Assembly (NCBI RefSeq): GCF_024346675.1
Contig: NZ_AP024850.1
Location: forward strand, 3,410,001 to 3,474,000
Reading direction: 5' to 3'
Length of the DNA: 64,000 bases
From: Photobacterium sanguinicancri
Lineage (GTDB): Bacteria > Pseudomonadota > Gammaproteobacteria > Enterobacterales > Vibrionaceae
Within the stretch, counting starts at the first letter, position 1; each line of letters opens with the position of its first letter. The notes beneath the pieces are model-generated. The model was not told the origin of the DNA. It was given only the letters and a program-made list of their open reading frames with translations, and did no database searches. A program made the position numbers and the translations under genes. This document shows, piece after piece, positions 17,193 through 30,901 of this stretch.

Positions 17193-20100
17193 TTAAGATA
17201 AAACTGCCCGTAACTTTAATGGTTTCACAGGCTTACTTATAAAACTAAAACCATATCCTCTAATCATCTTTTGAGTTTCTGTCGTGCGATCTGCGCTAAT
17301 AATTGCACCTTTAAACGTTGTACCTAACCGTAAACGACATTGTTGTAAAACATGCAGACCGGTTTGCTCTTTGGCTAAATGGTAATCACTTAATACAAAT
17401 GCTGGATACCAGCCATCATCGAGATGTTGCATCGCATCAGAGATATTTTCTGCTAAACGGACATCACACCCCCAACGCCCTAGCAAGGTTTCCATTCCCA
17501 GTAAAATATCGGATTCATTATCCACGCACAGAACTTTAACGCCATCGAGTGCTGGACGAGAAGGTATCATGACCAAAGGCTTCACCTTCGCTGCTACTTG
17601 CCCTCGCTCCGTTGTTAAGGCAAATACTGTCCCCTTACCAACCCAAGAGCGCAGAGACAACGGATGGTCAAGCACGCGCCCGATCCCACGAGCTATTGCT
17701 AAGCCAAGCCCGAGTCCATGTTCAATATCACCGCGATCTAGTCGCGTAAACTCATCAAAGATACTGGCTTGTTTCGCTTTAGGAATACCAGGCCCATTAT
17801 CCCAAACCTCAATCCGATATTGCCCTTGTATACGCCTTCCCCCCAGCGTCACTTTACCTTTCGGGTTATAACGAAATGCGTTGGTCAAAAAATTCTGCAA
17901 AGCACGGCGCAATAATTTAGGGTCCGATTGAATAACCACCTTAGTGCTAACGACATTGAAATTGATCCCTTGCTGCTTCGCTAACGCACCAAACTCAGCC
18001 TCTAGCGTATTAAACACATCACTCAGAGGAAAAGCATGCACATTAACCTGCAACTTGCCGGCCTCTAACCGCGATACATCCAGTAAATCCCCAATCAGAT
18101 CTTCAGCAGCCTCCAAGGCACTTTCAATATTATGCGCTAATTTTCGGCTCTCTTTCTCTTTGGTCACTTCACTCAGTGACGATGAAAACAAACGCGCCGC
18201 ATTTAACGGCTGCATTAAATCATGACTAACAGCGGCCAAGAAACGGCCTTTTGAATGGGATTGTTGTTCCGCTTGTTGCGTCGCCGTCACCAGTTTTCGA
18301 TTCAATAATTCAAGCTCTTGAGTACGTTTCTGCACCCGGGCTTCTAAGTTTTCGTTGGCTTCTTTCAAGGCTTGCTCGGCTTGGCGAAATGCCGTGATAT
18401 CAGAAAAGCTCATCACAAATCCGCCACCGGGCATAGGGTTGCCTTGTACTTCGATCACTTGCCCATCACTACGAATGCGTGATGAGGTATGAGCAGTGCC
18501 TCGCTGTAAGTGCTCAACCCTTTTTGCCACATGCTTTTCAGGATCACCCGTGCCACACAAACCTTGTTGAGCGTTATATCGAATCACATCAGCGATTGGA
18601 CGACCAACTTGGATTAACCCAGCAGGGAAGGTGAACAATTCTAAATAGCGCTGATTCCACGCCACTAACCTCAGCTGCTTATCCACGACAGCAATACCTT
18701 GATTAATATGCTCAATCGCCCCTTGTAATAAACCGCGACTAAAATCGAATAACTCAGAGGCTTCATCAACGATGGTCGCGACCTCTTCAAGCTGCATATT
18801 GCGACCTTTTAATGCGGAAGTAAGTACTAACCTCGCAGAGGACGCACCAAACACGCCAGCTAACACCCGTTCGGTATGACGGATCAAAGCTGCACTGGCT
18901 TGCAGTTCTGATGTTAAGGTGCCTCGGTGTTGTTCTGAAAATTGGCGAAACGCCTTTCGAGCTCGTTTACGGCCAACAAAACGTGCCGCTAGCATCTCAA
19001 GCTCACCAACCGTCACGCGACTTTGATATAAGCTAACATCGTCCGTTTCAGGTAATGGCGCACCGACGAATGTCGCGGCCTGTAACCGTTCAGTCAGTGA
19101 TGAACGGGTAAATACTGACACCAATACGTACAAGCTGATGTTAACCATTAAGCTAAGCAACATGCCCCAATCAACCGTAGTAAGCACTTCCAATATTGGT
19201 AATGACGGTGGCGTGAGTAGCCATAACAACACATTGGTTTCAGCCGTACCTGCGAGCATGCCGGTTTGAGTCATCATGGTGATCACCCAGATGGTGATAC
19301 CACCAATTAGTCCAGCGTATACCCCGTTACGATTACCTTCTCGCCAGTAGATCCCCCCCAGTAATGCGGGAGAAAATTGCGCGATAGCAGCAAAAGACAA
19401 TAAGCCAATCGCCGATAACGACGGGATATTATCGAGAATTTGATAAAACCCCCATGCCGCCAGTAGTAACACCAAAATAAGGGCACGACGGATATTAAGC
19501 AGTAAACCAGAAAACGCAGAAAACCGTCGGTCCGAAATACGTAAACGTCTTAGCAACAAAGGCAAAACAAGATCATTCGACACCATGATGGCTAACGCGA
19601 TAGTAGACACTATCACCATGCCACTGGCTGCCGAGGTTCCGCCTAAGAACGCCAGTAGTGCAATATTCTCAGCACCTTGTAATAACGGCAGGTTTATCAC
19701 GTAGGTATCAGCCGATACTTGCGGGATCAGTGCTTCACCAGCTAAAGCAAGCGGCAGCACAAAGATCCCCATTAGTACTAAATAGCCAGGAAATATCCAG
19801 CGCGCTTTGTGTAGATCTTGCGCTCTATTATTTTCGACGACGATAGTGTGAAACTGGCGTGGCAAACAAATAATCGCCGCCATGGTCAGCAAGGTATGGA
19901 TTAGGAAACTACCGATATTCAACGAACTGGTAGCGATATGTTGCTGGGCGCTAACCGTCCAGCCCGGTTGTTCAATCAGCAACCAAACCGCAAAGCCCCC
20001 CACAATAAGAAACGCCCCTAATTTAATGAGCGACTCAAAAGCCACCGCCATCATCATGCCACGATGGTGTTCGGTGGTATCAATATGACGAGTGCCAAAC

Positions 20101-20627
20101 AGCACAGTGAAGGCTGCCATACACAAGGTCACCACCAAAGCGGTATCAAAAGACACTCCAGCCCCGAAGCTAAATTGCGCCCCCAAGTCAGGTGCAATTT
20201 GAGTCAGCCCCATGGTGATACCCCGTAGTTGCAAGGCGATATAAGGCAAAATGCCAATCACTGCAATCACAGTAACAAGCACAGCAAGCCCTTGCGACTT
20301 CCCATAACGAGCAGCAATAAAGTCAGCAATCGAGGTAATGTGTTCACGTTTAGCGATGAGGATCAGACGAGCCAGAATGCGCCAGCCCAGCGTAAAGACA
20401 AGAATAGGGGCGAGATAAATAGGAAGGAATGACCACGTATCTTGGCTAGCTTGTCCGACCGTGCCATAGAAGGTCCACGAGGTACAATAGACCGCGATCG
20501 ATAAGCTATAAATCCAAGGGCGCCAGCGCGCAAGCCATGTGTTTTTTTTATCACCATACCAAGCGATAAAAAACAGTACCCCTAGGTACATCAGTGATAC
20601 TGGTACAACGACCCATCCTTGCGTCAT
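17193..20627 (-). CDS. crbS: SLC5/SSF transporter-hybrid histidine kinase, probable CrbS
   Basis: A large fusion of a sodium:solute-symporter-like membrane domain (about residues 1-500) and a signalling part. After the helices come a linker region, a PAS domain (about 635-740: GAIEHINQGIAVVDKQLRLVAWNQRYLELF), a coiled coil, HisKA with the phospho-acceptor His (FLAAVSHDLMQPLNAARL, about 795-815), the ATPase domain (DNGPGIPK, GLGLGLAIARGI), and a C-terminal receiver with Asp in FVLSDYH. In Vibrio cholerae CrbS activates CrbR to induce acs. The start at 20627 (MTQGWVVVPVS) has GGGG five bases upstream and is preferred to one 60 bases earlier. The product is 1144 aa. Confidence 0.88.
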   Translation of the reverse strand: MTQGWVVVPVSLMYLGVLFFIAWYGDKKNTWLARWRPWIYSLSIAVYCTSWTFYGTVGQASQDTWSFLPIYLAPILVFTLGWRILARLILIAKREHITSIADFIAARYGKSQGLAVLVTVIAVIGILPYIALQLRGITMGLTQIAPDLGAQFSFGAGVSFDTALVVTLCMAAFTVLFGTRHIDTTEHHRGMMMAVAFESLIKLGAFLIVGGFAVWLLIEQPGWTVSAQQHIATSSLNIGSFLIHTLLTMAAIICLPRQFHTIVVENNRAQDLHKARWIFPGYLVLMGIFVLPLALAGEALIPQVSADTYVINLPLLQGAENIALLAFLGGTSAASGMVIVSTIALAIMVSNDLVLPLLLRRLRISDRRFSAFSGLLLNIRRALILVLLLAAWGFYQILDNIPSLSAIGLLSFAAIAQFSPALLGGIYWREGNRNGVYAGLIGGITIWVITMMTQTGMLAGTAETNVLLWLLTPPSLPILEVLTTVDWGMLLSLMVNISLYVLVSVFTRSSLTERLQAATFVGAPLPETDDVSLYQSRVTVGELEMLAARFVGRKRARKAFRQFSEQHRGTLTSELQASAALIRHTERVLAGVFGASSARLVLTSALKGRNMQLEEVATIVDEASELFDFSRGLLQGAIEHINQGIAVVDKQLRLVAWNQRYLELFTFPAGLIQVGRPIADVIRYNAQQGLCGTGDPEKHVAKRVEHLQRGTAHTSSRIRSDGQVIEVQGNPMPGGGFVMSFSDITAFRQAEQALKEANENLEARVQKRTQELELLNRKLVTATQQAEQQSHSKGRFLAAVSHDLMQPLNAARLFSSSLSEVTKEKESRKLAHNIESALEAAEDLIGDLLDVSRLEAGKLQVNVHAFPLSDVFNTLEAEFGALAKQQGINFNVVSTKVVIQSDPKLLRRALQNFLTNAFRYNPKGKVTLGGRRIQGQYRIEVWDNGPGIPKAKQASIFDEFTRLDRGDIEHGLGLGLAIARGIGRVLDHPLSLRSWVGKGTVFALTTERGQVAAKVKPLVMIPSRPALDGVKVLCVDNESDILLGMETLLGRWGCDVRLAENISDAMQHLDDGWYPAFVLSDYHLAKEQTGLHVLQQCRLRLGTTFKGAIISADRTTETQKMIRGYGFSFISKPVKPLKLRAVLS

Positions 20628-20736
20628 GAACACCCCTAACCGTGTTAACTCTCCGTTAAGCCATGTTAACGACAGGACAGTTATCACTCAATCAGGGGGA
20701 TCACAGTTCAGCAAGACGGTATTACACGGGCAACGC

Positions 20737-21666
20737 CTAGAATAAACCTTTCTTTTTAATCTTTTGCACATTGGCAATACGCTGTGAAAGATCGGCTTCA
20801 TTATCCTGCGGTGTAGCTTTGGGCTCTGCCGCTGGCGCATTCAATGATAAATTACGGATCATTTGGGTTTGTGCTTTCAGCATGGCTTTCAGCTCAGCCA
20901 TTTCTTGCGACACTTTCTCTGCATTTTCAGCCTGAGCCGACGCTAATGCCGAGGCTTGTTTCTGCGCCTCTAATAGCGCTTTGATCTCTTCTAATTGCTG
21001 GGTTTGCTGATCCAAAGCAATAGCTTGTTGTTCCGACATCGCGCGAATAATTTCCGCTTTTTCTGTCGAAGTACAATCCTGACCAGACAGACGCGCTTCC
21101 ACTTCCATCAACTGTGAATGAAGCGGTCTAAATTGGGCCTGCATCGCCTGTGTAACAGCCATTAAACTGGCTTCAGATAAGTCAGTTTCTGCCGTACATT
21201 CTTCGCTCGATGCTTGGTTTTCACGATCTTCGCGTTGAGCTTGACCTAACTGAGTCACGCTCTGCTGAAGTTGCGCTAAACCTTGGTTTACCGAACTTAA
21301 ATCAACCGCACCTTGTAACTGCTCCAACATCCCCGAAATATCGGAACTTTCCGCGCCATCTAACTGAAACCCACAGATTTCAAGTTGACGTCGTAGTGTT
21401 GGAATATCAACGGTATCCTTACCCAAGTTATCCACTAAACCCTGACTTAATACTGGGCTTAGCAGATACATATACATACCCGCCAGATAAATGGTTTTGT
21501 GCATATGCAAACTCGAATGCAGCGCGGCTGCATCCGACGGGTTTTCGACTAACTGCTTACGCTCATCGACCCACTTTTGCATCACCCCGACCGCAAAGCG
21601 GTCGGACTGAGATTTAACTAAATCAAGATAGATCGAATAATTAACCCGTTTTAATTGGCTACTCAT
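20737..21666 (-). CDS. ParR-like N-terminus with long coiled-coil tail, partner of ParM-like actin
   Basis: A 309-residue protein. The first about 90 residues resemble the ribbon-helix-helix ParR adaptor of plasmid R1 in pattern: a strand-like VNYSIYL, an amphipathic helix, then HKTIYLAGMYMYLLSPVLS, comparable to ParR's ALTAGLALYRQDPRTP. Residues about 100-290 are Gln/Glu/Ala-rich heptad-like coiled coil with two Cys-containing short insertions. The end is strongly basic (VQKIKKKGLF). ParR proteins are usually about 100-120 aa, so the coiled coil is an unusual extension. The ATG at 21666 lies within the last bases of the ParM-like gene (8-base overlap), giving translational coupling. Function as a centromere-binding adaptor is inference. 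Confidence 0.6.
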   Translation of the reverse strand: MSSQLKRVNYSIYLDLVKSQSDRFAVGVMQKWVDERKQLVENPSDAAALHSSLHMHKTIYLAGMYMYLLSPVLSQGLVDNLGKDTVDIPTLRRQLEICGFQLDGAESSDISGMLEQLQGAVDLSSVNQGLAQLQQSVTQLGQAQREDRENQASSEECTAETDLSEASLMAVTQAMQAQFRPLHSQLMEVEARLSGQDCTSTEKAEIIRAMSEQQAIALDQQTQQLEEIKALLEAQKQASALASAQAENAEKVSQEMAELKAMLKAQTQMIRNLSLNAPAAEPKATPQDNEADLSQRIANVQKIKKKGLF

Positions 21667-22705
21667 CCTCAACCTCTATCAATGATTCTGGCTCGACTTC
21701 TAGATCGTCAAAATCGCTGTGGTAAATACACAATTCACGTGCAAGTGCAGACTGTGCATCGTTAACCAGCACAACACGATCACCTAAGGTCGCATACGCT
21801 TCTTTCAGTGCAGGTGCAATTAACGGTGCGCCACCACCCACTAGGTAAACACGGTTAGGATTTTTGGCAAACTTCTTCGCTTCGTAGGCAACAGAGGTTC
21901 CAAGTTCTTGGATCTTGTTTTCAATCTTAGTCAGAATCACATCAATCTGAGATTCGTCATTAACTACTTCTCGTACGAAGTCCATATCATAACGACGCTT
22001 AATCAGCTCATTCGCCACTAAGTAACTTGCATCACTATCGGCGGCGGCTAGTGCTTTACGCGCCGCATCCGTCACCATAGAAACGCCAATTTCTTTGTTA
22101 CCGTAAACCGCAGATACATCGTCAAATTCACCAACGACCACACCCATATCAAGGGTCGTACCGCCACAGTCAACAACCAATGAGCGAGTGAATTCGTTAC
22201 AGTTAGAATCCATTAACGTCGACAATACTGCTGGTACACTTTCAGGCATCACAACAACATCAACAACCTCAAACAGATCGCCTTTATTCAACGCAATTTC
22301 ACGCATCAAATTTTGACGTTTTTTCTCAATGTTCGCTTCGTTACGCTGGCAATCTTCCGCGTTATAAAACTCAGTGATTGGCAAGGTAACCACTAAACGA
22401 ACTGGACAAGGTGTTACACCGGTTTGCAACAGCGCATGGTGAACACCAAGCAGGTTTAAATCATCGTATTGATAATCGACATGCGTTGTTTCTAACGCTT
22501 TATCTGACGTTGCATCGTACGTGTACTTCGTGGTGCCGATGGTGTAGTTAAACACCTTCTTATCACGACGCAGCGCCGCACTTTTCCAATCTTTACGGAA
22601 AGAGTTCGGCGAAATAATCGTCTTAAGCTGAGTACTTTCAATCCAGCTTACTTTTACATTTGTAGAACCGTCATCAACCGCAAAGGTAAACGCAGAAACT
22701 GTCAT
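21659..22705 (-). CDS. ParM/StbA-like actin-family ATPase
   Basis: Bacterial actin homologue resembling ParM of plasmid R1, which polymerises to push plasmid copies apart. The 348-residue product has phosphate-1 (FAVDDGSTNVKVSW), many ParM-specific stretches (ISPNSF, DKKVFNYT, VHHALLQTG, LPITEFYN, VMPESVPA), phosphate-2 (VVDCGGTTLDMG) and the adenosine motif (VYLVGGGAPLI), in the right order. All key nucleotide-binding motifs are intact. The start at 22705 has GAGTGA upstream. The gene overlaps a ParR-like gene downstream. It follows the flagellar stator genes but is separated from them by a hairpin. No clear parC repeats were found in the 145 bases upstream. Confidence 0.85.
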   Translation of the reverse strand: MTVSAFTFAVDDGSTNVKVSWIESTQLKTIISPNSFRKDWKSAALRRDKKVFNYTIGTTKYTYDATSDKALETTHVDYQYDDLNLLGVHHALLQTGVTPCPVRLVVTLPITEFYNAEDCQRNEANIEKKRQNLMREIALNKGDLFEVVDVVVMPESVPAVLSTLMDSNCNEFTRSLVVDCGGTTLDMGVVVGEFDDVSAVYGNKEIGVSMVTDAARKALAAADSDASYLVANELIKRRYDMDFVREVVNDESQIDVILTKIENKIQELGTSVAYEAKKFAKNPNRVYLVGGGAPLIAPALKEAYATLGDRVVLVNDAQSALARELCIYHSDFDDLEVEPESLIEVEDE

Positions 22706-22745
22706 ATTTTTCACTCGCAATTTTTATTATCAATAACAAACAGAG

Positions 22746-22776
22746 AAGCCGAAGGTAGCCACGCCACCTCCGGCTT
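22746..22776 (-). terminator. Hairpin between lafU and parM-like gene
   Basis: AAGCCGAAGGT and ACCTCCGGCTT form an 11-pair stem. The one non-Watson-Crick pair is G-U on the minus strand. Downstream T content is modest (CTCTGTTTGTT). It probably ends the lateral flagellar operon. Confidence 0.6.
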
Positions 22777-22850
22777 TCAATTCAATCAAACACTTAGCAA
22801 AACACTCATTGATATGAATATTATCGGCATCATGCTCTTCTACTTAACTA

Positions 22851-23852
22851 TTAATTCAGCATGACCTCTAAACGGCTTACTGGCTGGTTCGATTCTGCAA
22901 AGTTACGCGCTTGCTGCAACGCAGGCGAATCGGTCACTGCAGGACCTTGACCAAACAACAAGGCCAGCTGGGTATCTGCCTCTTTGGTTAATATCATCAT
23001 CTCGATCCGACGGTTTTTACCGCTTTTCGGATCATTTTCATTAACCAACATTCGCTCAGCCATCGCAGCCACCTGCAAGACATTGCCTTGTGGTAAACCA
23101 GAACTAACTAAGGTTTGGCGTGCTTTTAATGCCCGCTCACCAGACAGTTCCCAGTTAGAGTATGTATCACGATGGAATCGAGTTACATCGGTATGGCCAC
23201 TGATCACCATCCGATTTTTAATCTGGCCTAATATTGGCGCTAAGCTATATAACATATCTTCGAAGAAAGGTGTCATATTTGAGCTTCCCCGCTCAAACAT
23301 AAAATGCTTGGTACTATCTTGGATCAAAATACGTAGCCCCTGCGGGACAATTTCCAGCACCACATTTTCAGAGGCAGACAGAGCATCAGTCACCGATTTC
23401 AGCTCATTCGCCAACATCATCAGCTGCGCCGTTGATAAGTGCTTACCCGCAATCATCGAATTCAGCTTTGAACCACGGCCTGCATTAGCACCGACTTTCC
23501 CTTCTGGGATCTGCTGGTGTAATGAAGAGTCTAATTTATTATTGCCGCTTAAATTCGACTGAACTGGGTTTTCAAATGGTGATGCCTCACCGCCAAAGTC
23601 AATCGGGAACGGGCTGTTAGCGACGTCAAACACGTTCTCCATATTGTCGAAGACACTGCTATGTTGCAGTCGGTATTGAATTTCTTCACGCTCTTCTTTG
23701 GATGCAATTTCCATGATCCACAGCACCATAAAAAACGCCATCATCGCGATTGCGAAATCGGCAAACGCGACTTTCCACGCTCCACCGTGGTGTTCATCGT
23801 GATGACCGCGTTTTTTCTTTTTGACGATGATGATATGAGGTTCTTTGCTCAC
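22851..23852 (-). CDS. lafU: Lateral flagellar stator protein LafU (MotB)
   Basis: H+-channel stator subunit anchored to peptidoglycan. The start is taken as GTG at 23852, with GGAG upstream and four bases after the lafT stop. This places the proton-binding aspartate of FADFAIAMMAFFMVLWIM at residue 32, the same number as in E. coli MotB. An alternative ATG at 23933 would overlap lafT by 77 bases. The C-terminal OmpA-like domain (about residues 190-300) contains VISGHTDVTRF and the NRRIEMMIL motif. It is last in the fliD-to-lafU operon, matching the V. parahaemolyticus order. Confidence 0.92.
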   Translation of the reverse strand: MSKEPHIIIVKKKKRGHHDEHHGGAWKVAFADFAIAMMAFFMVLWIMEIASKEEREEIQYRLQHSSVFDNMENVFDVANSPFPIDFGGEASPFENPVQSNLSGNNKLDSSLHQQIPEGKVGANAGRGSKLNSMIAGKHLSTAQLMMLANELKSVTDALSASENVVLEIVPQGLRILIQDSTKHFMFERGSSNMTPFFEDMLYSLAPILGQIKNRMVISGHTDVTRFHRDTYSNWELSGERALKARQTLVSSGLPQGNVLQVAAMAERMLVNENDPKSGKNRRIEMMILTKEADTQLALLFGQGPAVTDSPALQQARNFAESNQPVSRLEVMLN

Positions 23853-23856
23853 GTTA

Positions 23857-24705
23857 TCAGTCTCCAGAAACCCATTTTTCCATCGTAATAAACGATGGTT
23901 TATATTCAGAATGCAGCACTTTGCGTCCAGCATCTAACGCCAGCAGTGTTGGTTTTCCTTGCGCTTGGGTGACCAAAATTGCAGAAACCATATTTAACGC
24001 CATCATCTCTTTTTTCACTTGGTTAGCAATGCTGGCTGCAATCGGTTCAAATACGCCATAGCACATTAAAATACCGAAGAAAGTACCCACTAACGCCGCA
24101 GCCACTTTGACACCAATCAAGGCCAAGGCCCCACCAATGCTCTGCATGGTCACAACAATACCCAATACTGCTGCGACAATACCGAAACCAGGCATGGCTT
24201 CACCTACCTTGCCCAAAGCTTTAGATGGACGAAGTAAGTCTTCTTCTAGCGCATGTAACTCCAGTTCCAATACCGCTTCTAAATCATGATGGCTCATTTT
24301 ACCCATTGCCATCATTCGCAAGTTATCGGTAATAAAACTCACTAGAACATTTGATTTAGTCACCTCAGGGTACTTACTGAAAATATCGCTACCTTGTGGA
24401 TTTTCAATATGGTCATCGAGCTTTTTAATGCCATCTTTACGAATAACTTCCAGTAATTCGTACATCAACTCTAATACGGATTTAAAGAAAGATTCGCCGT
24501 AGCCTTTCCCAAACATCATCTTTAAACGGGTTAGGATATTTTTAAGCACGTATGGCGGGTTAGAAATCACCATCGCGCCAAAACCGGCCCCCAGAATAAT
24601 GACAAATTCTGCCGGTTGCCAAAGTGCCAGCATTCGCCCCGAGGCATGGGTATAGCCATAAACAATGGACCCGAAGACAATGACAAAACCAATGATAAGT
24701 TGCAT
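23857..24705 (-). CDS. lafT: Lateral flagellar stator protein LafT (MotA)
   Basis: Four-helix stator subunit that couples proton flow to torque. The 282-residue length and sequence resemble proton-type MotA rather than the shorter Na+-type PomA. Visible are the N-terminal helix pair, the cytoplasmic loop with VLVSFITDNLRMMAMGKMSHHDLE, and GKVGEAMPGFGIVAAVLGIVVTMQSI leading into helices 3-4 (VAAALVGTFFGILMCYG). It starts 12 bases after lafS and ends four bases before lafU. Confidence 0.94.
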   Translation of the reverse strand: MQLIIGFVIVFGSIVYGYTHASGRMLALWQPAEFVIILGAGFGAMVISNPPYVLKNILTRLKMMFGKGYGESFFKSVLELMYELLEVIRKDGIKKLDDHIENPQGSDIFSKYPEVTKSNVLVSFITDNLRMMAMGKMSHHDLEAVLELELHALEEDLLRPSKALGKVGEAMPGFGIVAAVLGIVVTMQSIGGALALIGVKVAAALVGTFFGILMCYGVFEPIAASIANQVKKEMMALNMVSAILVTQAQGKPTLLALDAGRKVLHSEYKPSFITMEKWVSGD

Positions 24706-27866: not shown

Positions 27867-29411
27867 TTAGCTAAGCATGCCAATCAACATGCTTTGGGTT
27901 TGGTTCATATTGGCAATTTGGCTATCCATACGTGCGTAGTAATCACGTAAGGTGATCGTCTTGGCTTTCATGCGTTCATCAAGCTGTTCACGATCTTTTT
28001 GCAAAGTTTTGTTGTTGTATTCCAGCTGATCGGTACGCTGATCGTAGATACCACCATTTTTGTGGTAGTCATCTAACACCACCAGCATCTTATCCATCAT
28101 GCCGGGCTGGGTGTCGGTACCTATGAACAAGTTAGCCACTTGCTCAAAGTCATCTTCGATGGCTTTATCGAGCTTGGTGTTGTCGATTTCCAACACGCCT
28201 TTTTGGCTAGTGGTAATACCCAACTGGGACAAAGTGCTAAACGTTGATGCGCCGTATTCATCCGAAATCACACCGCGTAAACGGCTAACCATACTTCGCA
28301 CTGACGCGTTACCCGACAGCGCTGCCGCGCCATCTTCGCTCGACTTGGTGTAGGTATTAACGGTTTCGATAATCTTGTTGTATTCATCAACAAAAGTCTT
28401 AATGGTGTCTTTAACGCCACTCTGATCCGCTTCTACCTTGACGTTGACGGCACCCACGGCTTTTAAATTCAGGGTCATGCCATCAATGACATTTTCCATT
28501 TTGTTGCTGGCCGATGTCAGTGTCATCGAGCCAAACATCACCTCGGCATCTTGTGCGGCTTGAAGATTAACGACGGTAGAATCAACGCTTGGTGACGGCG
28601 TAAAACCAGATACATCTATTGAGTTAATGCTGTTTGCATTACCGGTATCTTTCGCATTCAATACCAGACTGACATTGTCACCACTGCGCACCAATGTCGC
28701 TTTAGCGAAATCATTTTTAGGGTCGTTATTAATCGCCTGTTGGATTTCTTCGAATTTAACGCCATCGTTTTGTAAGCGTGTTTTTTCTGTCGTAATTGCG
28801 TCTAAACGACTTTGATAGCTGTCGTGACGATCTTTGTCGTAATTGGCATGAGCAGGATCGGTCAGTGCCTTTTCCGCTTCCGCTTTTTCAGCTGGAACGG
28901 TTAAGTCATAGCCGTGTTTTTTGGCCACTGATTCAAGTTGGCTGTCGGTTAGCTCTTGCGTTTTGGTGTCTTGTGCGGCGATTAAATCCGCTTGCAGCTT
29001 GGCAATATCAACCGTCACTTCTTTGCCGACTTCACCAAATTTAATCACCCCTTGGGTGAAGGTTTCATCAGCACCGGCTTTAAGTAACTGATCACGCTGC
29101 GCTGTTGCTAACTGCTTCACATCAAAAGCATATTCACCCGCAACCGCATTGGCATCCACTGCCACACTTAAGAAGTCTTCATTGCTCAAAATAGCTTTTA
29201 GTTTTTCTAGTTCTCGCTTTGAGCCAAGATCTTCTACTGTGTCACGAAAGCCGTTAATGGTGTTCTGAATTTCTTTCAGCGCTTCCATTTCAGCTTTGTT
29301 CATACCCTCTTGACGGTTCAGCTGATTGTCTTTTGGGGCACGTTCGGCAGCAATGATGGCGCTAATCATTGATTCATAATCAATACCGGAACCAATACCT
29401 GTCATTATCAT
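27867..29411 (-). CDS. lafB: Lateral filament cap protein FliD (LafB)
   Basis: Forms the cap at the filament tip under which flagellin is inserted. The 514-residue product has the FliD start (GIGSGIDYESMISAIIAAERAPK, about residues 5-27), a variable middle, and a conserved C-terminal half (VKVEADQSGVKDTIKTFVDEYNKIIETV, and a coiled-coil end with MDSQIANMNQTQSMLIGML). ATG at 29411 has GGAG about ten bases upstream. It heads the operon that runs to lafU. Confidence 0.94.
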   Translation of the reverse strand: MIMTGIGSGIDYESMISAIIAAERAPKDNQLNRQEGMNKAEMEALKEIQNTINGFRDTVEDLGSKRELEKLKAILSNEDFLSVAVDANAVAGEYAFDVKQLATAQRDQLLKAGADETFTQGVIKFGEVGKEVTVDIAKLQADLIAAQDTKTQELTDSQLESVAKKHGYDLTVPAEKAEAEKALTDPAHANYDKDRHDSYQSRLDAITTEKTRLQNDGVKFEEIQQAINNDPKNDFAKATLVRSGDNVSLVLNAKDTGNANSINSIDVSGFTPSPSVDSTVVNLQAAQDAEVMFGSMTLTSASNKMENVIDGMTLNLKAVGAVNVKVEADQSGVKDTIKTFVDEYNKIIETVNTYTKSSEDGAAALSGNASVRSMVSRLRGVISDEYGASTFSTLSQLGITTSQKGVLEIDNTKLDKAIEDDFEQVANLFIGTDTQPGMMDKMLVVLDDYHKNGGIYDQRTDQLEYNNKTLQKDREQLDERMKAKTITLRDYYARMDSQIANMNQTQSMLIGMLS

Positions 29412-29468
29412 GCTGTGCTATCTCCATTCAAAAGGGGAATGTGGTAGGAAGCGCCCTATACCTACGCG

Positions 29469-29495
29469 TATAAAGCAAAGTTCATACCAACTTTA
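29469..29495 (-). promoter_or_regulatory. Candidate sigma-28 promoter of the fliD operon
   Basis: On the minus strand TAAAGTTG is followed after 11 bases by GCTTTATA, about 57 bases before the fliD start. The -35 part and spacing match the sigma-28 consensus (TAAAGTTT, N11, GCCGATAA); the -10 match is partial. Confidence 0.4.
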
Positions 29496-29543
29496 AGTTG
29501 TTGATTTTGTTGTTTTGGGTGAGTTTCAGGCTTGTGATAAAAA

Positions 29544-29570
29544 TAAAGCGGAAGTAAAACTTCCGCTTTA
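29544..29570 (-). terminator. Terminator of lafA
   Basis: A 12-bp perfect stem (TAAAGCGGAAGT / ACTTCCGCTTTA) with a 3-base loop is followed on the minus strand by TTTTTATC. Confidence 0.92.
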
Positions 29571-29611
29571 TACATTCAACGTTGGTTAACGCCCATTGGA
29601 GTGGGTGACGA

Positions 29612-30901
29612 TTAACGTAGTAGTTGAGAAACCATGCTTGGCATTTGGTTTGCCTGAGAAAGCACTGTGATACCTGCTTGCATCATAGTGTTTTGCTTAG
29701 TCATGTTTGCAGATTCTGCAGCGATGTCAGCATCCATGATGCGGCCTTTCGCAACAGACATGTTCTCAGAGATGTTGCCAAGGTTGTTGATAGTTGATTG
29801 GAAACGGTTTTGAGTCGCACCAAGGTCAGCACGTACAGCGCCAACGTTCTCGATCATTGCATCAATTTCTTTAATTGCAGTTTCAGAACCAGCGATGTCT
29901 TTTACATTACCAAGTTTAGACGTATCTAGTGCTGCGCTATCTACTTGAACGTTGATAACATTTGGATCTTTAAATGCAGTAGTGTCAACTTTTGCACCAG
30001 TCATTGCCGTTTGAAGAGCAGACATGTCGAAATTACCGTCAGCATCAGCAGTTGGTAGTTTCACACCGCCATTTGTACCTGCATCTTCTGTTAGGCCTTT
30101 CGCCGCAGTAGCTAACGCTTCTAGTTTAGTTGCTGCATCTTTACCGCCAGTTGCAAGCGTGATTTTAACATTTGTACCAGGAGTCGCACCATCTTCTACT
30201 GCAGCATCAATTCCCATATCTTTTAGGAATTTTTCTGCATCAGCCTTGCCACCAAGCGCTGTGATATCTGCAGATTTAGTGCCATCAGTAAGAGCTTTAA
30301 GCGCTGTTAACTTAGTTTCAACAGCTGTAACATCTGTGTTTTTTTGTGCAGAATCAGATTTAACGCCAAGCTTAGCTAGCGTGTCGTTAATTGCTTGTGT
30401 TGAATTTGATTTGCTTAATTTAGACGCATCTACTGTTTTAACATCTGCACCCACTTGGAAATCAACACCCGTGTTAAGCTTTTCAAACAAACTCTCACCT
30501 TTACCGTAAGTAGTTGTCTCTTGGATACGGCTAAGTTCTTTACCCATCGCTTGGAATTCTTTGTCTAGTGCTGCACGGTCAGAATCTGAGTTAGTACCGT
30601 TTTTAGATTGCACAGACAGGTCACGCATGCGTTGTAGGATGTTAGTGTACTCTTGCAGTGCACCTTCAGCCGTTTGTGACATAGAGATGCCATCGTTCGC
30701 GTTGCGTTGCGCTACTTTAAGACCGTTAACTTGAGAGTCCATACGGTTTGCGATTTGTAGGCCAGCAGCATCGTCTGATGCACTGTTAATGCGAAGACCA
30801 GTAGATAGGCGTTGTAGTGAAGAATTAAGTGAACCTTGAGTGCTAGTAAGGTTACGCTGTGCATTCATTGATGCAAAGTTAGTGTTGATGGTCATTGCCA
30901 T
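29612..30901 (-). CDS. lafA: Lateral flagellin LafA
   Basis: Filament subunit of the lateral flagella. The 429-residue product has the conserved N-terminal D0/D1 ([62 protein letters not shown]) and C-terminal D1/D0 ([37 protein letters not shown]). Between about residues 165 and 335 is a variable outer domain rich in Ala, Asp, Lys and Thr. V. parahaemolyticus LafA is about 284 aa, so this one carries a larger surface domain. GAGGA lies before the ATG. It is monocistronic with its own terminator. Confidence 0.93.

Follow-up and report, generated by a model that had tools for sequence, protein, structure and literature searches.

A chromosomal ParM-type actin gene and its probable ParR-derived partner accompany secondary flagella in Photobacterium and relatives and may work for them

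The window, i.e., the whole 64,000-nucleotide stretch of the Photobacterium sanguinicancri chromosome analyzed here, carries a ParM-type actin gene (parM) and the gene of a partner protein next to the lafU end of a lateral flagellar gene block (Table 1). A preliminary description of this DNA had given an overlap of 8 bases between the two genes, which is indeed what the reading frames show.

Table 1. The gene pair and its flagellar neighbourhood (positions in the window)
Feature	Position	Strand	Basis or remark
parM, ParM-type actin gene, 348 aa	21659..22705	minus	curated-model and R1 ParM matches; start ATG at 22705, stop 21659-21661
Partner gene, product probably ParR-derived, 309 aa	20737..21666	minus	profile comparison, tail, model helices; start ATG at 21666, stop 20737-20739
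Overlap of parM and partner gene, 8 bases	21659..21666	minus	identical in 21/21 Photobacterium copies
lafU-parM gap, terminator-like hairpin at ~22746-22776	22706..22850	minus	by eye
lafU (lateral MotB-type), upstream neighbour of the pair in type-A blocks	22851..23933	minus	named by resemblance
Lateral flagellar block, lafU to flhA	22851..58056		gene names by resemblance to annotated clusters

Curated ParM models match the actin over its whole length, placing it in the ParM family: the Pfam domain StbA_N scores 201.7 bits (cut-off 24.6) and the second ParM domain 126.7 bits (cut-off 27.4). ParM chains of plasmid R1, from the PDB set, match it at 237 bits over nearly the whole length. Judged by these matches, the protein is an R1-type ParM, in agreement with the earlier statement that it keeps the ParM features. 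Its closest plasmid relatives, which are about 53% identical, come from Vibrio breoganii, Providencia, Escherichia and Serratia plasmids, and its C-terminal tail is about 17 residues longer than those of the enteric plasmid ParMs. A 78%-identical match labelled as plasmid-borne sits in Photobacterium sp. DA100 on a replicon of 2.1 Mb, most likely chromosome II.

The partner protein consists of an N-terminal domain (N-domain, approximately residues 1-104), a coiled coil that varies between members, and a C-terminal end, QKIKKKGLF, that is conserved. No Pfam or NCBIfam model matches it above cut-off, and no PDB entry does so at E ≤ 10. The plasmid ParR family PF10784 (Plasmid_stab_B) gives no match at E ≤ 1 for the partner and two relatives, P0011 and P0012; among the controls, three plasmid ParRs score 86.9-100.8 bits and the V. 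breoganii plasmid ParR gives no match. When the N-domain profile is aligned to that of plasmid ParR (PF10784) by hhalign, the score is 34.6, a value reached by none of 200 column shuffles (highest 23.2) and compared with 10.8 for the reversed control; with the Vibrio members added, the score is 38.5 vs. a highest value of 22.1 among 100 shuffles. This profile similarity identifies the N-domain as a remote homologue of plasmid ParR, and the ParR-like N-terminus recognized by the preliminary description is thereby supported. From 5.8 billion proteins, word-based searching retrieved 13 relatives of the partner, the named ones all from Photobacterium, and missed distant members that profile searches later recovered.

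Common to the 21 Photobacterium orthologues are an N-domain of roughly 100 residues and the end [QR]K[VI]KKKG[LI][FW], with very different coil lengths in between. The long coiled coil, also part of the earlier description, is seen as long helices at residues 124-151, 163-195 and 200-275 in a low-confidence monomer model (24 rows, mean pLDDT 59.4, pTM 0.30) whose quality is poor and in which the N-terminal strand of the putative ribbon-helix-helix (RHH) fold does not take shape. The earlier claim that the KIKKKGLF end is unlike ParR did not hold. A hydrophobic last residue combined with two or more K/R among the final ten residues is found in 33/33 partners and in 68/70 plasmid ParRs, compared with three of the 56 genes of the window, a set that includes the partner. 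The basic hydrophobic tail is therefore an ordinary ParR feature. In ParR, this tail grips the end of the ParM filament.

The columns that are invariant in a 24-row alignment include L5, K6, R7, N9 and S11 in the N-domain and K302, K304, K305, K306 and G307 in the tail. N9 and S11 lie on the strand that, by analogy with other RHH proteins, we expect to face DNA. Their invariance would suit transcription control, in which the partner would bind DNA and regulate the lateral flagellar genes, with ParM modulating it and filaments being secondary. The repression by ParR proteins of their own promoter also speaks for such a role. However, N9 and S11 vary among the Vibrio members, and the conserved tail points to filament binding; we regard this explanation as unlikely.

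The terminator-like hairpin in the lafU-parM gap is also present at two related loci, L045 and L046 (by eye). As the preliminary description had stated, parC repeats are not seen upstream of the actin gene: the 161 bases scanned upstream of the window parM contain no direct repeats of at least 9 bases. In the enteric plasmid relatives, parM is immediately preceded by palindromic repeats at intervals, with the form AATACTCA..TGAGTAT. Direct-repeat scans covered eight regions and then sixteen, four of which were plasmid controls. Three of these controls show 3, 2 (L051) and 4 iteron copies and the V. breoganii control shows 0 in 121 bases; the chromosomal relatives give mostly two-copy matches and one three-copy match (L040), with no regular array. 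When one mismatch is allowed, 9-mers reach at most 2-4 copies in 34 upstream stretches of 320 bases, a set that includes no plasmid control. There is thus no clear centromere array beside the pair, and sites elsewhere are possible; this absence is suggestive only, because the V. breoganii plasmid control also shows none.

The lack of a clear array of iterated sites beside the genes weighs against another explanation, according to which the pair helps to segregate the chromosome or chromosome II and is tied to lateral flagella only via shared ancestry. Such a role would fit the ParR-type domain of the partner and the behaviour of other chromosomal ParMs, which polymerize and, in one case, have a working parC, as described in the main text of PMC12270681. 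We consider a segregation helper quite improbable, in view also of the genomic distribution described below.

The close ParM family occurs in 21 of 52 Photobacterium genomes, after three distant further ParM places (G005, G009 and G043) were set aside. The lateral FlhA proteins of these genomes fall into type A (16 genomes, 80-100% identical to the window) and type B (21 genomes, 57-60%), in addition to a degenerate copy in G040. All 16 type-A genomes have the pair adjoining the block, downstream of lafU, and several of them have one or two fliB-like genes in between; fliB encodes a flagellin lysine methylase. Five type-B genomes, which make up subtype B2 in this genus, hold the pair elsewhere (in G012 and G045, the replicon concerned is some 2.1 Mb in size), and the remaining 16 type-B genomes do not have it, nor do any of the 14 Photobacterium genomes without a LafU match. 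Physical linkage could explain type A alone. In a tree of the polar FlhA, types A, B1 and "none" are intermixed: G033, of type B1 and without the pair, is almost identical to the pair-bearing type-A genomes G001 and G042, and G031, which has neither block nor pair, falls into a group with G011, G018 and G032. That near-identical relatives such as G033 vs. G001 and G042 differ in both flagellar type and pair argues against a segregation helper, although linkage alone could suffice to produce this pattern.

The variability of the block has a published counterpart in P. profundum SS9, as which G032 was taken on the basis of matching coordinates. PMC1239915 gives 13,496-49,254 for the flagellar cluster and 13,500-51,360 for the segment absent in 3TCK. 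This segment ends at the partner gene, and block and pair form one variable segment. Such joint variability would be expected of a neutral or selfish hitch-hiker, i.e., a partition module that mobile flagellar blocks, themselves once plasmid-borne, have taken along. G036 also favors such a passenger: most of its block is lost and no lateral FliF is left, and the pair is intact. Nevertheless, hitch-hiking has in our judgement a rather low probability, owing to the unlinked copies and the selection on them, both of which are treated below.

Across 329 Vibrionaceae genomes, the partner profile has 36 matches at E ≤ 0.001, 34 of which were taken as real; the other two, in G010 and G262 (E 7.6e-5 and 5.5e-4), involve the coil region only and were counted as without the pair. 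Lateral-type LafU is found in 119 of the 329 genomes (E ≤ 1e-20), namely in 33/34 pair-bearers vs. 86/295 others (Fisher p 2.5e-15, not corrected for descent). Since 86 of the 119 LafU-bearing genomes are without the pair, lateral flagella as a class do not require it. Exceptions to the association are G098 with the pair and no LafU match, and G074 with a type-A LafU and no pair. The position of the pair also differs: it follows fliB or lafU in G073 and G088, occupies in five Vibrio the flhB end of an additional, distinct lateral cluster, and has no match to a flagellar structural gene of the window within about 10 kb in six genomes.

A LafU tree of 46 sequences, selected by hand, places types A and B2 next to each other (100/97) and the ten B2 rows in one clade (100/99), with the classical Vibrio type and B1 separate from A/B2. 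A B2 profile likewise scores 622-675 bits for the eight intact B2 LafU sequences and 313 for the next best sequence; in G102 and G194, the B2 LafU is in pieces. The partner is present in 10/10 B2 genomes, which belong to two genera, and always on a contig other than that of LafU (contigs of >1 Mb in G012, G045, G104 and G118), which is difficult to reconcile with a hitch-hiker. Nine of these ten genomes, i.e., all except G045, were compared for their gene neighbourhoods; the pair sits in four different ones, and that of the LafU-less G098 is a fifth. The ParM tree, from which the split ParM frame of G102 was left out, recovers the same groups as the LafU tree except that the Vibrio B2 copies of G104 and G118 fall outside the B2 cluster. 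The pair thus tracks the LafU subtype, which is a further argument against a segregation helper; the presence of the pair without LafU in G098, and in G474 of the wider sample below, is in favor of one.

Upstream of the B2 parM, an element TTCAAA-N12-(A/G)(A/G)TTTGC, a candidate operator or promoter, was recognized by eye (L034, L037, L039, L042, L143, L144 and L145) and is conserved at three different genomic locations, which can be read in favor of transcription control. However, it is not evident in G104 and G118 (L146, L147), and it neither resembles the lafA promoters of the same genomes nor is found at lafA, which speaks against such control. A scan for sigma-28-like promoters gave no convincing match.

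The association extends over the order. In a sample of 394 genomes, the partner is detected in 21 at E ≤ 1e-8, 20 of them outside Vibrionaceae, and ParM lies beside the partner in all 20 of the latter (70-76% identity in 19, in pieces in G635). Nineteen of the order-wide partners were read, all of which end in [KR]G[IL][FW]. At E ≤ 1e-40, a limit that was chosen after the scores were known and that gives 60/394 genomes, LafU is present in 19/21 pair-bearers vs. 41/373 others (Fisher p 4.6e-15, calculated with 42 instead of 41 and not corrected for descent). At E ≤ 1e-30, LafU is found in 77/394 genomes and 20/21 pair-bearers, the additional one being G635 by a 110-bit match taken as not lateral; G474 has the pair and no LafU match. 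In genus g84, G485 combines a lateral-type LafU with an intact ParM, and G635 combines the absence of a lateral-type match with a ParM in pieces. The preliminary description had named a scattered distribution, with no link to flagellar blocks or plasmids, as an outcome that would speak against its reading; the link persists in the Vibrionaceae as well as in the order-wide sample.

Named relatives, 99 in all, were obtained in a further scan; the best 80 of them were analyzed, some of their loci ending at contig ends. These best 80 include Photobacterium, Vibrio, Enterovibrio, Aeromonas, Enterobacter, Lelliottia, Kluyvera, Citrobacter, Leclercia, Pantoea, Hafnia, Shewanella, Ferrimonas and Moritella, among others. 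At least two flagellar genes lie within 6 kb in 35 of the best 80, namely in Photobacterium (14/17), enteric bacteria (18/21), Vibrio (2/3) and Enterovibrio (1/1), and lafU was matched upstream of parM in 17 of the 18 enteric flagellar loci. In the same set of 80, flagellar neighbours within 6 kb are absent from the Aeromonas (0/17), Ferrimonas (0/8) and Shewanella (0/10) loci.

ParM is under strong constraint. Its dN/dS is 0.01-0.04 in those genome pairs, 10 out of 12, whose dS is finite, unlinked B2 copies included, and that of the whole partner is 0.08-0.17, looser than ParM, in the six out of 12 with a finite dS, with dS being high or saturated in many genome pairs. The gene pair is not a decaying relic, and strong purifying selection that extends to unlinked copies is not what a neutral or selfish hitch-hiker leads one to expect.

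Secondary flagellar clusters do occur on plasmids, in V. breoganii and P. toruni, which again fits a hitch-hiker. The 341-kb V. breoganii plasmid has its flagellar cluster at 4-41 kb (L192, NZ_CP016179.1 4152-40884) and a ParM at 325 kb. The 97-kb P. toruni plasmid carries a secondary flagellar cluster together with chemotaxis genes (L194, NZ_CP101697.1 61963-96880) and no annotated ParM in a gene table that is incomplete. The short ParR of V. breoganii was considered as a missing link to the partner, but the comparison did not support it (single-sequence profile score 14.1 vs. shuffles of up to 20.0). The pair may descend from a flagella-bearing plasmid. The earlier suggestion that the block itself once travelled on a plasmid is plausible: the joint presence of a cluster and a ParM on the V. 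breoganii plasmid is in its favor, whereas the ParR kinship found no support and the flagellar cluster of that plasmid is of a different subtype. On the ParM tree, no branch is longer than that of the V. breoganii plasmid ParM, so that a sister relation is not claimed.

Among known systems, the pair is most readily compared with the type II partition system ParMRC of plasmid R1 and its enteric relatives, with which it shares a ParM 53% identical to the enteric plasmid protein, a ParR-related N-domain, a basic hydrophobic tail and the gene order parM-parR. We note two differences. First, the pair is chromosomal, has no clear parC array and is linked to secondary flagella. Second, the partner is 171-362 aa long with a coiled coil, vs. 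about 130 aa for plasmid ParR. Chromosomal ParMs (cParMs) of Desulfitobacterium, Clostridium and others were reported in JBC in 2025 (PMC12270681), whose main text describes chromosomal ParMs that polymerize, one of them with a working parC. The cParMs of that text resemble the present ParM in being chromosomal, conserved within genera in several cases and of unexplored role; the two characterized ones are from Firmicutes, unlike this pair, and the words "flagell", "Vibrio" and "Photobacterium" are absent from the main text. On the flagellar side, the block that adjoins the pair is of the kind known as lateral flagella in Vibrio and P. profundum and as Flag-2 in Enterobacterales (PMC6993521). 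ParM and StbA are absent from the main texts of two papers on Enterobacterales flagella (PMC6993521 and PMC7526173), and a search of the openly available literature found no report of an association of ParM/StbA with lateral flagella.

The gene family, its co-occurrence with secondary flagella in cis and in trans and the strong purifying selection form the basis of our interpretation. The earlier suggestion that the pair now serves another job is probably correct. In our view, there is an even chance that the pair is a domesticated plasmid-partition (ParMR) module working for secondary (lateral/Flag-2) flagella. A shared function is favored over linkage by the unlinked B2 copies in two genera, the varied positions at which the pair is attached, the association across the order and the joint decay seen in G635. 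Counting against service to flagella are the exceptions G098, G474 and G074, the retention of the pair after block loss in G036, and the dissimilarity of the B2 parM upstream element to the lafA promoter.

Within this flagellar interpretation, ParM would polymerize into dynamic filaments, and the partner would dimerize via its N-domain and extend by a coiled coil of variable length. Its basic C-terminal hook may hold the end of the ParM filament, as in ParR, while the N-domain may hold a cargo, either a site of flagellar assembly or a small number of DNA sites. Growing filaments could then spread lateral flagella, or their assembly sites, along the cell and into both daughters. The reach that the coiled coil gives to the adaptor fits the moving or spacing of a cargo. 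More specifically, and more tentatively, the pair may constitute an actin cytoskeleton dedicated to secondary flagella, which would partition or space assembly sites in several groups of Gammaproteobacteria, namely in Vibrionaceae and Enterobacteriaceae, and perhaps in Aeromonas, Shewanella and Ferrimonas. We infer that distributing flagellar assembly sites outweighs transcription control, hitch-hiking and chromosome segregation as the role of the pair.

Polar flagella are placed by FlhF/FlhG; to our knowledge, how lateral flagella are placed and shared between daughters is an open question, for which a conserved actin filament system that accompanies the flagellum from family to family, unlinked copies included, would, if the interpretation is true, be a candidate answer. 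It would also provide a first testable function for chromosomal ParMs, a group that PMC12270681 describes as unexplored in its role.

Several minor observations concern the variable surroundings of the pair. In the collapsed block of G036, an open frame (L028 7342-8427) ends in the C-terminal part of lafU and overlaps a fliR-like end, and the fliB-like gene, parM and the partner gene are still open. The Vibrio genomes G155, G274, G298, G325 and G327 have a second lateral-type cluster besides the usual lateral LafU (L203-L207), and some of these second clusters contain several flagellin-like genes. Comparison of the window (27867-30901) with L044 (11888-14995) from the same species gives 63% identity for flagellin and 58% for FliD, vs. 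96-100% for most neighbour genes; a fliB-like gene precedes parM in L044 only, and we read these differences as a swap of a filament cassette. The window also encodes at 17193-20687 a protein of 1164 aa, which appears by eye to combine a symporter-type membrane part, a histidine kinase and a receiver. Its gene sits between the pair and an acetate-permease-like gene in the window, L045 and L046, and a relative in G036 lies by flhA, at the opposite end of the block.
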